64,000 nucleotides of DNA from Arthrobacter sp. U41 (GTDB lineage Bacteria > Actinomycetota > Actinomycetes > Actinomycetales > Micrococcaceae), in the NCBI RefSeq assembly GCF_007679325.1, contig NZ_VEGI01000001.1, forward strand, positions 682,001-746,000, written 5' to 3'. Of this stretch, positions 919-5,421 are shown in pieces. Position 1 is the first letter of the stretch; the number at the start of each line of letters is the position of its first letter. The notes beneath the pieces were generated by a model that was not told where the DNA came from, did not search any database, and was given only the letters and a program-made list of their open reading frames with translations. The translations under genes were made by a program, and so were the position numbers.

Positions 919-2235
919 ATGTTAGGCATCGATACTTCTTCAGCGCGCTCTAAACGTCTCGGCGGGAGATTAGCAACCGGCGCGGCAACCGCTGTGATCG
1001 CCTCCGGAGGGCTAGTCGTATTTTCTGCGCCGGCCTTCGCTGCAGAGTCGGAAACATGCACCGCTGCGCAGGCAAGCTACCAGGCCGCCTTGACCGCTAC
1101 CGGCGCGAGCAACACACTTTCCGCCCAAGTCGCGGCAGCAAATCAAGCCGTGACCGAAGCGCAGCAGGCCCGCGATGCCCTGGCCGCAGCCGCCGTTGCC
1201 GACGCTGTCCAGGCGCAGGCCGACCTCGACGTCGCCGTCGCGTCCGCAGCCAAGACGGAAACCGGCTTGGAGTCGGCCCGGGAGCGACTGCAACGCGCAC
1301 TCGACACCGCCAGGTGGGCGGCCGACCGCGTGGACCGGATCCAGACCGAACTTGATGAGCTGCCTGAGCTGAATGCCGCGGCCGAGGAACAAGCAAGGAC
1401 TCAGCTCGAAGCAGCGACCGCCGCGCAGTCCGCTGCCGCTGTTAGTGTCACTGCCGCCCAAACAGCGCTGGAAGCCGCCAACGCGTCTCAGGACCAGCCG
1501 GCGATCGATGCCGCCCAAGCCGCACTGCTGGCCAAGCAAGTGGTGCTGGAAGCGGCTGAGGCGCAGCTGGCTGCAGCAAAATTGGCACTCGAAGGCGTGA
1601 AGGCCGACGGTGAGGCTCAGCTGGCGGATGCCTGGAACAGGGTAGAAGCCGCGGAGCAGCTGTTGTGGGAGATGGGTGATCACCTCATGCAGGCCGACGA
1701 TGCGTTCCGCGCCGCCAACGATCAGGCCGATACCGCAGCCGATGGCGTCACGCGGGCGCAGGCCACCCTCCTGGCGGCCCAGAATGTGGAAGGCATTGCT
1801 GCAGCAGATGCGGCTCTGGCTACAGCCAGCGCGGCCGCCAAGGCGCTGCACGCTCAAACAACGACGCCTCCTGACCCCGCATCCATCGACCGGCTGTTCC
1901 GTACTGCCCTCGAAGCCTGCGCGGCAACTTCTGAGACCGTCCCAAAGACACCAGTGGCTGTGGCCACGCCGGTCGTGGCGCCGGTGATAGCCACGGAGTC
2001 CCGGCGTGCGGCAGTTGAGGTTTCGTCCTCAGCTCCGGCGCAACAGACCGGTGCTGCAAATGCGGCCAATCCCGGCCTGAACGTGCAGACCGGCGTTATC
2101 ACCGATGCCGCCGCTCAAGCACCTGCTAGTCCCCAGGGTCAGGGCGGGCTGCCGGTGGCCGCATGGTCGCTGGGAGGACTCGTCGTCCTCGCGGCTGCTT
2201 CATTTGGCGTGCGGCGCCGCTCTGTGCGTGGGTAG
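919..2235 (+). CDS. Secreted Ala-rich coiled-coil surface protein, probable sortase substrate
   Basis: The 438-residue protein starts at an ATG preceded by GGGGGAA. It has a Sec signal peptide (Arg/Lys n-region, hydrophobic core about 18-35, AFA-AES cleavage near residue 41). Residues 45-320 are dominated by Ala, Gln, Glu and Leu with heptad-like spacing, as in long extended coiled coils. After a Pro/Val/Thr/Ala-rich linker (about 330-405) the C-terminus has GGLPVAAWSLGG, a hydrophobic segment and a basic RRRSVRG tail. That is the layout of a cell-wall sorting signal, with LPVAA where LPxTG would be expected. The adjoining sortase gene overlaps its stop codon, so the two probably work together. 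No enzymatic domain is seen. Confidence 0.85.
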   Translation: MLGIDTSSARSKRLGGRLATGAATAVIASGGLVVFSAPAFAAESETCTAAQASYQAALTATGASNTLSAQVAAANQAVTEAQQARDALAAAAVADAVQAQADLDVAVASAAKTETGLESARERLQRALDTARWAADRVDRIQTELDELPELNAAAEEQARTQLEAATAAQSAAAVSVTAAQTALEAANASQDQPAIDAAQAALLAKQVVLEAAEAQLAAAKLALEGVKADGEAQLADAWNRVEAAEQLLWEMGDHLMQADDAFRAANDQADTAADGVTRAQATLLAAQNVEGIAAADAALATASAAAKALHAQTTTPPDPASIDRLFRTALEACAATSETVPKTPVAVATPVVAPVIATESRRAAVEVSSSAPAQQTGAANAANPGLNVQTGVITDAAAQAPASPQGQGGLPVAAWSLGGLVVLAAASFGVRRRSVRG

Positions 2236-2899
2236 CCAACAGGCCGATGGGTGGTGCCGTTCCGGAGGAAAGGCTCTAATCCAAATCGCGCTGCTCACCG
2301 GTCTTGTGGGAGTGCTGCCGGGCTGTACGCCTGGCGGCCCCCACGAGCCGACGTCAGTTGCCGCGGAGCCCTCTCCGGCTCCGCGGCAGTCCATTGTTGA
2401 GACCGACGTGGCTCCGGGGGCCGTCCGAGGAGCCAGACCTGGCTCGTCTGCACTTCCCCCGGCCTCCCCTCCCCTATGGATCAGCTATCCGGCCGCCGGC
2501 ATTGAACTCTCCGTGCTCCCGCTGACGCCAAGCGCCGGCGAACTGCGAGCCGGTTCCCTGGTCCCGCCGACGACCATGGACGCCTACTGGCTCACAAACT
2601 ACGGGCAGCCTGGTTCCGGCTCAAGCAACACGACGTACATCGCCGGGCACAGCTGGGAAAACGCCGAGGCCCCTTTCAACCGGCTCAGCGGCCAGTCCGC
2701 AATCGGGGACGAACTGAGCGTCAGCACGGCGACAGGCACCGTGAATTTCAAGGTGCTGAGCGTCACCACCCACGACAAAGACACGCTGCGTTCGAGCAAT
2801 GTGTGGAACATCGTGCCCGGCCAGCTGGTGCTCATCAGCTGCTATACCGAAGACATCCAGGGTAAGAACGTGATTGTCACGGCCGTGCCCAACCCGTAG
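2228..2899 (+). CDS. Class F-like sortase, possibly lipid-anchored
   Basis: This protein (about 223 residues from GTG 2228) carries the actinobacterial class E/F sortase core. A catalytic His is seen in TTYIAGHSW, a Cys in LVLISCYTED, and SIADW-like strands lie between them. Sortases cleave a C-terminal sorting signal and join the substrate to the cell envelope. The N-terminus has a basic stretch (CRSGGK), a hydrophobic helix (ALIQIALLTGLVGV) and LPGC, a slightly imperfect lipobox, so it may be a lipoprotein. The start is uncertain: GTG 2228 gives a sensible signal sequence and overlaps the upstream stop by 8 bases. A strong GGAGGAAAGG at 2264-2273 has no ATG, GTG or TTG at the right spacing. 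No C-terminal Arg is obvious after the Cys. Confidence 0.82.
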   Translation: MGSQQADGWCRSGGKALIQIALLTGLVGVLPGCTPGGPHEPTSVAAEPSPAPRQSIVETDVAPGAVRGARPGSSALPPASPPLWISYPAAGIELSVLPLTPSAGELRAGSLVPPTTMDAYWLTNYGQPGSGSSNTTYIAGHSWENAEAPFNRLSGQSAIGDELSVSTATGTVNFKVLSVTTHDKDTLRSSNVWNIVPGQLVLISCYTEDIQGKNVIVTAVPNP

Positions 2900-2938: not shown

Positions 2939-3736
2939 CTAAAGGGTGCCGCTGTCCGTGCGCAGGTAGTGCAGCTGGGCGGCCACGGACAGTTCCGCCG
3001 CGGGCCGGACGGCGGGGTCGACGGCGGCATACACAGCGTCCGCCACTTCGGTCACCTCGGCGCCGGCGCCCAGGCCGTCCAGGGCAGTGCGGATCTGCGC
3101 TAGGCGGTCCTCGCGGTGGTCCCGGTAGGCGCGGACGATCGTGTCCAGTGCCGGCAGCATGGGCCCGTGGGCCGGGAGGACGGTGGCGGCGCCCAGCAGT
3201 TCCAGCCGGTCCAGGGAGGCGAGGTAGTCCCCCAGAGTGCCGTCGGGGTAGTCCAGAACCGTGGTGCCGAGGCCCAGGATCGTGTCGCCGGTGAGGACCG
3301 AGCCGCGGGCGCCGTCGTCGGGCAGGTGGAAGCAGACCGAATCCGAGGTGTGGCCCGGTGTGGCCACGACCCGAATTTCCGCGCCGGCGGCGTGGATGAC
3401 TTCGCCGTCCGCGAGGGGTTCACCGCCGTGACAATGGGCCGGGTCCTTGGCGCGCACGGGTGCGCCGGTGAGCTCGGCGAAGCGGGCGGCTGCGGCTGTG
3501 TGGTCCGCGTGCCGGTGCGTGATCAGGATGAGCTCGACGGTCCCGGCCCGGGCCAGTTCCTGCAGGTGCGGCTCGTCCAGCGGCCCGGGATCGACCACGA
3601 CGGTGCCGGCCGCGCCGGGGGCGGCAATGACGTAGGAGTTGGTCCCGTGCAGGCTCATCGGCCCCGGGTTGGGGGCCAGCCTGAAGCGGGTCAGCTCTGT
3701 GCTGCGCACCATGGCGCGGGGGTCGTCGGGGATCAC
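2939..3736 (-). CDS. MBL-fold metallo-hydrolase (LACTB2/glyoxalase II-like)
   Basis: The 265-residue protein has the metallo-beta-lactamase HxHxDH motif in LILITHRHADHTAAAA, followed by VVATPGHTSDSVCF and VLPAHGPML, which supply the remaining zinc ligands. The C-terminal 60 residues resemble the winged-helix tail of the LACTB2 subgroup, whose members cleave RNA or thioesters. The start is GTG (MIPDDPR), with a GAAGATGGAA upstream. It converges with the sortase gene 39 bases away. The substrate is not deducible. Confidence 0.85.
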   Translation of the reverse strand: MIPDDPRAMVRSTELTRFRLAPNPGPMSLHGTNSYVIAAPGAAGTVVVDPGPLDEPHLQELARAGTVELILITHRHADHTAAAARFAELTGAPVRAKDPAHCHGGEPLADGEVIHAAGAEIRVVATPGHTSDSVCFHLPDDGARGSVLTGDTILGLGTTVLDYPDGTLGDYLASLDRLELLGAATVLPAHGPMLPALDTIVRAYRDHREDRLAQIRTALDGLGAGAEVTEVADAVYAAVDPAVRPAAELSVAAQLHYLRTDSGTL

Positions 3737-3779
3737 AGTTCCATCTTCCCACCGAACCGGACGGGATGCAGTGCCGGCG

Positions 3780-4154
3780 TCATACCAGCAGCATCACCGC
3801 AATGACGGCCGGCAGCAGCGCCTCGGCGATGGCACTCGCCCACAGCCGCCGCTCGGACAGGACCAGGATGATGCCCAGCAGGACGTGGCCCAGGCAGGTG
3901 AACAGCAGCAGCGCCTCCCCGGCTGCGGGCTGGTCGCCCGTCAGCATAACCGAGCCCACGGTCGCGCCCACACCCCAGATCATGTTGTAGAACCCCAGGT
4001 TGAAGACCCACATCCGCACGGTTTCCGTGTCCTCCGGCTTGATGAGGAACAGCCGGTGGAAGCGCTGGTCCCGGAAGAAGAAGGACTCCAGGATCCCCAC
4101 GAGGATCAGCAGGACCCCGAAAATGACACCCAGAACCTGAACAAGTCCAGTCAT
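3780..4154 (-). CDS. DUF1304 family membrane protein
   Basis: This 124-residue protein has four hydrophobic segments (about 4-22, 48-66, 80-98, 105-123). The conserved ILESFFFRDQRFHRLFL and NLGFYNMIWGVGA patterns are typical of DUF1304. The family is small, integral to the membrane and without an established function. The gene lies 43 bases upstream of the MBL hydrolase on the same strand and could be cotranscribed with it. Confidence 0.85.
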   Translation of the reverse strand: MTGLVQVLGVIFGVLLILVGILESFFFRDQRFHRLFLIKPEDTETVRMWVFNLGFYNMIWGVGATVGSVMLTGDQPAAGEALLLFTCLGHVLLGIILVLSERRLWASAIAEALLPAVIAVMLLV

Positions 4155-4237
4155 GCGCCATATTGTGCCCCTGCGTCCGGGACGTGGCTAGGGGCTTCTG
4201 ACCGGCGCCACCGGACCACGCACCGGGCGATTAACGA

Positions 4238-4277
4238 CGACGGCGGCCTCCCCACCGGAAGGTGGGTGCCGCCGTCG
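4238..4277 (-). terminator. Hairpin downstream of ilvE
   Basis: CGACGGCGGC (4238-4247) pairs with GCCGCCGTCG (4268-4277). An inner CCCACC/GGTGGG stem closes a GGAA loop. It lies about 30 bases beyond the ilvE stop. On the minus strand a short T-containing tract (TCGTTAAT) follows. Confidence 0.6.
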
Positions 4278-4308
4278 AACGCTGCCTATGTAAGTAAGGC
4301 GCTACCGC

Positions 4309-5421
4309 TTAGGCCAGGCGGGTCAGCCAGCCGTGGGTGTCCTCGACGGTGCCGGTCTGGATGCCCAGGAGCTGCTCGCGGATGGCCATGGTGGTCTCCC
4401 CCGCCTTCGCGTCCTCGGAGCCGATGAATTCGGTGTCGTCCTTGAGTACGCCGATGGGGGTGATCACGGCGGCGGTGCCGCAGGCGAAGACCTCGGCGAT
4501 CTCGCCGGAGGCCACGCCGTCGCGCCATTCATCCAGCGTGATCTTGCGTTCGGTGACCTCTCGGCCCATGTCCTTGGCCACCTGGATAACGGACATCCGC
4601 GTGATGCCCTCCAGGATGGTGCCGCTCAGCGCGGGGGTCACCAGTGAGCCGTCCTTCATCACGAAGAACACGTTCATGCCGCCGAGCTCTTCCACGGCGT
4701 TGTCATTGAACTGGTCCAGGAAGAGGACCTGCTTGCAGCCGTGGGCCTCGGCTTCCTGCTGCGCGATCAGAGACGCGGCGTAGTTGCCGCCGCACTTCGC
4801 GGCGCCGGTTCCGCCGCGGCCGGCGCGGGCGTATTCGCGGGAAATCCAGATGGAGACGGGCTTGAGTTCGCCGCCGAAGTAGTTGCCGGCCGGGGAGGCG
4901 ATGACGCGGAAGGACACTTCGCGGGCGGCGCGGACGCCGAGGAAGGCCTCGGTGGCGATCATGAACGGCCGCAGGTAGAGGGCTTCGCCGTCGCCGGAGG
5001 GGACCCATTCCTTGTCCACGGAAACAAGCTCGCGGATGGCGCCCAGGAAGTACTCTTCGGGGAGTTCGGGGAGGGCCAGGCGGCGGGCCGACTTGTTCAG
5101 GCGGGCGGCGTTGGCCTCCGGCCGGAAGGTCCAGATGGAGCCGTCGGCGTGGCGGTACGCCTTGAGGCCCTCGAAGATTTCCTGGCCATAGTGCAGCACG
5201 GCGGCGGAGGGATCCAGAGAGATGGGGCCGTAGGCCTCAACCCGGGCACTGTGCCAGCCGCCCTTGCCCTCGGCGTCGACGCTGTAGTCAACGATCGCGG
5301 TGTGGTCGGTGAAATGGTTGCCGAAACCCGGGTTCGCCAGGATGGCAGCACGTTCTTCAGCGGACTTCGGGGTTGCCGAGGGCTGCTGGGTGAATTCGAC
5401 GCCATGGGCAGTCTGAGTCAT
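4309..5421 (-). CDS. ilvE: Branched-chain amino acid aminotransferase
   Basis: IlvE is a PLP enzyme that performs the last, reversible transamination to Val, Leu and Ile with glutamate as donor. The 370-residue protein matches the long class IV aminotransferase type found in actinobacteria and eukaryotes. Visible motifs are [32 protein letters not shown] (the Lys is the PLP lysine), [14 protein letters not shown] and [15 protein letters not shown]. The start ATG follows a GGAACC-type ribosome site. It lies downstream of leuB on the same strand with a 125-base gap, as part of the branched-chain synthesis group of this window. Confidence 0.97.

Follow-up and report, generated by a model that had tools for sequence, protein, structure and literature searches.

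A putative dedicated sortase–substrate pair with a conserved, proline-free NVQTG-type signal in Arthrobacter and related Micrococcaceae

Organization of the gene pair

The window analysed here is a 64,000-nucleotide stretch of contig NZ_VEGI01000001.1 of Arthrobacter sp. U41. Near its beginning lie two overlapping forward-strand genes, the first of which encodes a protein with the following features:

919..2235, + strand: substrate gene (open reading frame), secreted surface protein of 438 aa, with GGGGGAA ahead of the ATG at 919
919..1041, + strand: signal-peptide-like stretch, read from the sequence, with its probable end at ...SAPAFA
1057..1920, + strand: helical ectodomain, bounded by its first and last cysteines (CTAAQASYQAAL ... 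LFRTALEAC), from predicted helices; end signature common to locus L034 and others
2158..2211, + strand: C-terminal hydrophobic stretch AAWSLGGLVVLAAASFGV, hydropathy maximum 2.03 over 15 residues
2212..2232, + strand: basic tail RRRSVRG, read from the sequence

The protein terminates in GGLPVAAWSLGGLVVLAAASFGVRRRSVRG, with four Lys or Arg residues within the last 15, and its order of signal peptide, motif, hydrophobic stretch and basic tail is that generally expected of a sortase substrate. The body is alanine-rich, and two long helices (residues 64-190 and 193-287) were predicted in a structure model of moderate confidence (mean pLDDT 67.8, pTM 0.44) that was built from an alignment of two sequences only. 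A search of the body against Pfam found nothing (best DUF1120, E 0.65), and its end signature (CTAAQ...L ... LF..AL.AC) is that of a group of helical ectodomains, with L034 the closest. The protein probably serves to display a long helical adhesin or spacer on the cell surface.

The second gene encodes the sortase:

2228..2899, + strand: sortase gene from its probable GTG start (frame open from the ATG at 2105); PF04203, sortase fold

The true start is probably the GTG at 2228, which overlaps the substrate stop by eight bases, rather than the ATG at 2105, as it was the sole ATG, GTG or TTG found from that ATG to the hydrophobic segment of the sortase. The open reading frame 2105-2899 matched the Pfam sortase family PF04203 with an E-value of 1.2e-9 and 38.4 bits (cut-off 26.6), confirming the gene pair described in the initial annotation, namely a secreted-type protein whose stop is overlapped by a sortase-domain reading frame. 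An AlphaFold model of the sortase (mean pLDDT 78.2, pTM 0.70) displayed the sortase beta-barrel fold and aligned with 3re9 in VIA-align over 127 residues (Z 14.9, rmsd 2.6). Many of the top Foldseek matches (best E 7.4e-9) were class C sortases, which, together with the presence of one substrate per sortase, could suggest that the enzyme polymerises its single substrate in the pilin-like fashion of class C, either as an alternative to wall anchoring or ahead of it. However, classes A and E score about equally as fold matches, such that the fold is not decisive for class, and a second pilin gene was not noticed beside the pair; polymerisation is accordingly considered improbable.

A conserved signal in the upstream neighbour

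One genome scan identified 165 relatives of the sortase, of which the best 80, from Arthrobacter, Pseudarthrobacter, Kocuria and Micrococcaceae, were kept with flanks of up to 5 kb. Comparison of these loci with the window revealed a conserved element in the C-terminal region of the upstream protein, which lies apart from the pentapeptide highlighted in the initial annotation:

2068..2094, + strand: predicted sorting signal NPGLNVQTG, with the predicted scissile bond between T and G of NVQTG (2080-2094); signal at 77/81 sortase loci
2149..2163, + strand: LPVAA, at the start of the membrane stretch, unconserved; window and L033 only

An upstream neighbour bearing the consensus N-x-G-[L/F/Y/M]-N-[V/A]-Q-T-[A/G] within the last 110 residues of its open reading frame was present at 77 of the 81 loci formed by the window and the best 80 of the 165 relatives (72 of 76 in the first set and 5 of 5 further loci), motif discovery and first count having been made on the same loci. 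The neighbour was not judgeable at the other four: the contig begins at the sortase in L082 and L103, and in L044 and L077, which were excluded, N lie between the neighbour and the sortase or just before the latter, a few of them interrupting the upstream reading frame of L077, by eye an ice-binding-like protein. The co-occurrence of both genes expected in the initial annotation is thus borne out. In 74 of the 77 signal-bearing proteins a hydrophobic tail follows in the same frame, the exceptions being L057, L062 and L106, and the gap between signal and membrane segment is long in the window, at about 21 residues.

Within bounds set by the search pattern, which itself restricts the residues allowed, the 77 signals were strongly conserved at the core Asn (N 76, D 1), Gln (Q 73, D 4) and Thr (T 76, S 1) positions and at the Asn of N-x-G (N 70), with a final residue that is mostly Ala (A 68, G 5, S 3, T 1). 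The position following the core Asn is mostly Val or Ala (V 40, A 24, I 9, M 2, L 2), and that following the Gly varies between aliphatic and aromatic residues (L 28, F 25, Y 11, M 6, V 3, I 2, T 2). Because of this restriction the control on open reading frames is important: among 2128 stop-to-stop frames of at least 150 aa at the same 80 loci, the loose motif occurred in the last 110 aa of 80, only 3 of which were not the neighbour.

The initial annotation had proposed LPVAA as the sorting motif, and its placement directly ahead of the hydrophobic stretch does resemble that of LPxTG. In the orthologue comparison, however, LPVAA was restricted to the window and L033 (Arthrobacter sp. OVS8), which are closely related (88% identity between ectodomains and 90% between sortases), and the next relative, L034, has LALGA in its place. 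LPVAA also lacks the Thr of known motifs, and the far better conserved GxNxQT[A/G] stands about 20 residues upstream of it, as NPGLNVQTG in the window, an element absent from the initial annotation. A sorting function for LPVAA is consequently very improbable. The proposal of a one-to-one pair with altered specificity fared better; the pairing and an unusual signal are strongly supported, with NVQTG replacing LPVAA as the motif concerned.

Occurrence of the signal and sortase beyond the first loci

Searches with the window's sortase covered genomes of the genus, the family and the phylum. Within the genus, 108 of 150 genomes contained a match (E 1e-5), with up to four copies, and 42 contained none; at the family level, matches at E 1e-15 were found in 31 of 197 genomes and 11 of 32 genera; and across the phylum 7 of 396 genomes matched at E 1e-10, two belonging to the window's genus and the rest being weak. 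In its own genome (3.89 Mb) the window's sortase matched only itself, and a profile search listed two other sortases, L001 and L002.

The DNA pattern for G-x-N-[VA]-Q-T-[AG] gave at least 150 rows across the 150 genus genomes. Among the matches listed, 92 have L, F, Y, M, V or I after the Gly, and 89 of these lie 154-1398 bases upstream of a sortase found in the E 1e-5 genus search. Two more adjoin sortase copies absent from the E 1e-5 results, bringing those beside a sortase to 91 of 92, and the remaining one is a chance match inside another gene; of the other 58 listed matches, 1 is beside a sortase. In the 42 genus genomes without a sortase there were 19 pattern matches and no C-terminal signals. 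The window's own genome contains the strict pattern once, in the substrate protein, and five matches to a looser pattern, among which only the window's substrate then has a hydrophobic tail. The initial annotation had allowed that the C-terminus could be a plain membrane anchor with an incidental sortase neighbour, for which the hydrophobic tail itself, and no more, could be cited; the presence of the same signal beside the sortase at all 77 judgeable loci, and its near absence elsewhere, make this extremely unlikely.

Among family-level loci the pairing rule is less strict than among the first 81. The signal was present at 20 of 23 (L121-L143), several of which repeat the first set; L142 carries the variant GLAVQT, which has no Asn, L141 has no signal-bearing neighbour within about 1.3 kb upstream, and L143 has just 85 bases of sequence ahead of its sortase. 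No such neighbour was found in the 1.5-kb flanks of the distant L144-L146 and L148.

With regard to genomic context, the ilvE, MBL-fold and FAH-family genes found at 2939-5421 of the window also adjoin a pair at twelve other loci, where the pair lies on the opposite side of ilvE. As these relatives keep the pair near the same genes in a different place, the spot is a possible hotspot for sortase-pair cassettes. Separately, two records named Vibrio cholerae strain 35D (L057, L099) contain the Micrococcaceae sortase discussed here together with its partner, probably as a result of contamination or misnaming.

Relationship between signal, ectodomain and sortase clade

The ectodomains upstream of the signal formed two large BLAST clusters, one of 34 (CHATGS-type or proline-rich) and one of 31 (helical, with Cys at both ends), along with several small groups that include ice-binding-like PF11999 domains (L085, L104, L106). 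These helical, CHATGS-type and ice-binding-like ectodomains are non-homologous and all carry the signal. The CHATGS domain had no Pfam match above cut-off in L081, L091, L093, L109 or L110; L079 exceeded the cut-offs of GSu_C4xC__C2xCH and Phostensin_N, two low-complexity-looking models, without a matched stretch.

In a tree of 76 sortases, signals with F or Y before the core Asn were separated from those with another residue there on a single branch, requiring 1 change, compared with a mean of about 24 changes when signals were shuffled (0 of 500 shuffles as low). This tracking of signal and sortase could be mere co-inheritance with the passenger, against which L079 speaks, as it has a CHATGS-type passenger yet combines an aliphatic signal with a sortase of the aliphatic clade. 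Inheritance as a cassette could also hold a signal and its sortase together on other grounds. In each of the 26 genomes with two listed pairs the four-residue signals differ between the pairs, whereas shuffled signals gave a mean of 6.3 genomes with an equal pair and only 4 of 10,000 shuffles were as low. Differing signals within a genome, such as GFNAQT with GYNVQT, are as expected if the pairs are insulated from each other, but may instead reflect two old paralogous loci.

At L054 and L107, two successive signal-bearing proteins precede one sortase, and the one-to-one rule therefore has exceptions. The ice-binding-like proteins at L085, L104 and L106 (and, by eye, L077) have the signal and a sortase alongside, and ice-binding proteins may for this reason be wall-anchored in these bacteria.

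Membrane anchor, active site and class of the sortase

The N-terminal and catalytic features of the sortase are as follows:

2276..2326, + strand: hydrophobic N-terminal anchor of the sortase, ending in lipobox-like LPGC (2315-2326); lipobox not shared across the family
2648..2650, + strand: catalytic His (GHSW), kept in 81/81
2840..2842, + strand: catalytic Cys (ISCYT), kept in 81/81
2864..2869, + strand: Lys-Asn at Cys+8/+9, the usual catalytic Arg position; residue counts from 81 sortases

The initial annotation had regarded the sortase as lipid-anchored. The LPGC sequence is indeed present, but when the N-terminal hydrophobic segments of 76 sortases were compared with a loose lipobox pattern only 4 matched, and some of these matches are probably spurious; in 71 of the 76 the anchor segment is an ordinary hydrophobic one. 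Lipid anchoring was thus rejected as a family trait and is at most a peculiarity of the window's copy.

The His and Cys are retained in all 81 sortases, a count to be read in light of how these were collected, as relatives were found by two short peptide patterns, one containing GHSW, and the first 76 were picked by a pattern containing both active-site residues, which missed L085, L093, L096, L099 and L104 (added later). The third catalytic residue of sortases, an Arg on strand beta8, is lacking in the window. Across the window and the best 80 of the 165 relatives, Cys+8 is K in 75, R in 2, Q in 2 and T in 2, and Cys+9 is N in all 81. Published Cys-to-Arg spacings are 9 in SrtE1 (Cys320/Arg329; PMC5148588) and Filifactor alocis SrtA (PMC13257024) and 8 in Clostridioides difficile SrtB (PMC5118464), such that, by spacing rather than by superposed coordinates, Lys or Asn occupies the place of the Arg. 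The Lys and Asn would then presumably take over the work of the usual Arg.

The lack of Arg at Cys+8/+9 in 79 of 81 sortases also raises the alternative that the protein is no transpeptidase and that its role is limited to binding, shielding or proteolysing the C-terminal signal, given the report that all classes keep His-Cys-Arg and that the Arg is essential there (PMC13257024). Against this, the His and Cys are invariant, a Lys stands at Cys+8 in 75 of 81, and the beta8 Arg is likewise unconserved in the class F sortases examined, 6 of 25 rows having an Arg close by, two residues ahead of the N/S/D of the strand; the alternative is judged unlikely. As the beta8 Arg is also unconserved in these class F rows, and a Lys (in some cases an Arg) usually stands nearby in the window's family, the loss of Arg as a unique mark of the window's sortase family was toned down. 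In the outgroup sequences L144, L146 and L148 an Arg is located directly ahead of the Asn.

The best-matching named class, and likewise an actinobacterial one, is class F. The window's sortase scored 28.9 bits against the NCBIfam class F model NF033748, far under the cut-off of 166, and 21.4 bits against the NCBIfam general sortase model (cut-off 39.35); the best E-value of NF033748 against the other 43 of 44 sortases was 2.3e-8. In both groups beta8 begins with Asn, and its Arg is weakly conserved. However, the window's family has a shorter beta7-beta8 loop and lacks the Arg four residues before the Cys that was seen in 25 of 25 class F rows, a regularity among the rows examined here rather than a published definition; the window has Val at this position and the family rows read have hydrophobic residues. 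In trees, the window's family and the Arg-bearing outgroup formed their own branch relative to class F with support of 100/98, subject to a long-branch warning. Class F has been reported to use LPXTG (PMC13257024), and its roles have been called unknown (PMC13251363).

Similarities were also apparent to two other classes. Class B sortases recognise NPQTN, with which the window's signal has an Asn-x-Gln-Thr core in common, although it lacks the Pro; the families listed for 44 sortases included none of the NCBIfam class B models. The pentapeptide NVQTG itself has been proposed as the signal of C. difficile CbpA, but was reportedly not cleaved in vitro by C. difficile SrtB (PMC4155245), leaving no enzyme for NVQTG in the literature examined. 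Class E sortases such as SrtE1 use LAxTG, and have in common with the window's sortase the fold and a non-Pro residue at the second motif position. The Cys-to-Arg spacing of 9 in SrtE1 equals the Cys-to-Asn spacing of the window's family (PMC5148588), but class E has Arg where the window has Asn, its motif differs, and it anchors several substrates, the chaplins (PMC5148588). A literature search found no publication on such a sortase pair in Arthrobacter, and publications on NVQTG with a sortase concerned, by title, C. difficile only.

The C-terminal architecture is of the same kind as those described by GVDTG_CTERM (NF058571), PVV_CTERM (NF051874) and LPXTG_anchor (TIGR01167), to which 25, 5 and 20 of 74 tails, respectively, had weak matches at E up to 10. 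The window's tail matched none of the three at this threshold, and that of L081 scored 15.9 bits for LPXTG_anchor, equal to its cut-off of 15.9. PVV-CTERM was rejected as the same signal, as the corresponding tails in the genus read AIPVVN.... These genus PVV-CTERM proteins (L209-L216) have AIPVVN..D.. tails, and inspection of 1.5-kb flanks at L209, L212 and L216 revealed no recognisable sortase.

The NVQTG-type tag marks a family of dedicated sortases that apparently has no name. As judged from sequence, the signal is a dedicated, proline-free, NPQTN-like one, and the sortase group that serves it is related to class F but lies outside those named classes that were tested. It is possible, although proposed here only tentatively, that this group constitutes a separate Micrococcaceae sortase class with Lys/Asn in place of Arg, a proline-free GxNxQT[A/G] signal, activity on the adjacent substrate only, and insulation by signals in multi-copy strains.

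Proposed mechanism

The pair is very probably a dedicated cassette in which the sortase reads the signal of the adjacent substrate and anchors that substrate to peptidoglycan. The signal peptide would direct export of the substrate, and the C-terminal hydrophobic stretch and basic tail would retain it in the membrane, whereupon the adjacent sortase would recognise GLNVQTG and its Cys would attack the Thr carbonyl of the signal. The C-terminal stretch would thereby be released and the protein passed to an amino group of peptidoglycan, the pair acting in cis with one sortase for one adjacent substrate. The observed elements of this scheme are the anatomy and adjacency of the two genes and the conservation of the signal, which does not depend on the type of ectodomain and follows the clade of the sortase. 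By analogy with characterised sortases, the enzyme most likely cleaves between T and G of NVQTG and links its single substrate to peptidoglycan, and the cut between T and G or A, the acyl-enzyme and the peptidoglycan acceptor would follow the same precedent.

The natural substrates and roles of actinobacterial class F-like sortases are poorly known, and here a related enzyme is found with an adjacent substrate. If the proposed function is correct, NVQTG/NVQTA gains its enzyme, and the family shows how strictly dedicated anchoring pairs evolve while ectodomains swap. It would also bear on sortase function without the catalytic Arg, and could provide further orthogonal enzymes for protein ligation.

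Other candidate pairs

Further loci have a class F-type or class F-like sortase after a secreted protein with a different tail. In the window's own genome, the class F-type sortase of L002 (C22:508405-511824), which scored 129.1 bits against the class F model and thus under the cut-off of 166, directly follows a secreted protein with the tail ...GVPGGRSGAAEAATGS... and without LPxTG. The tail of the L118 neighbour (AVPAGNAG) is similar to that of the L002 neighbour, and L002 may for this reason be another dedicated pair with its own signal. At L219 and L220, the gene ahead of a class F-like sortase encodes a secreted protein whose tail reads GQMKMPAGGA[AD]TG..., perhaps indicative of a further dedicated pair.
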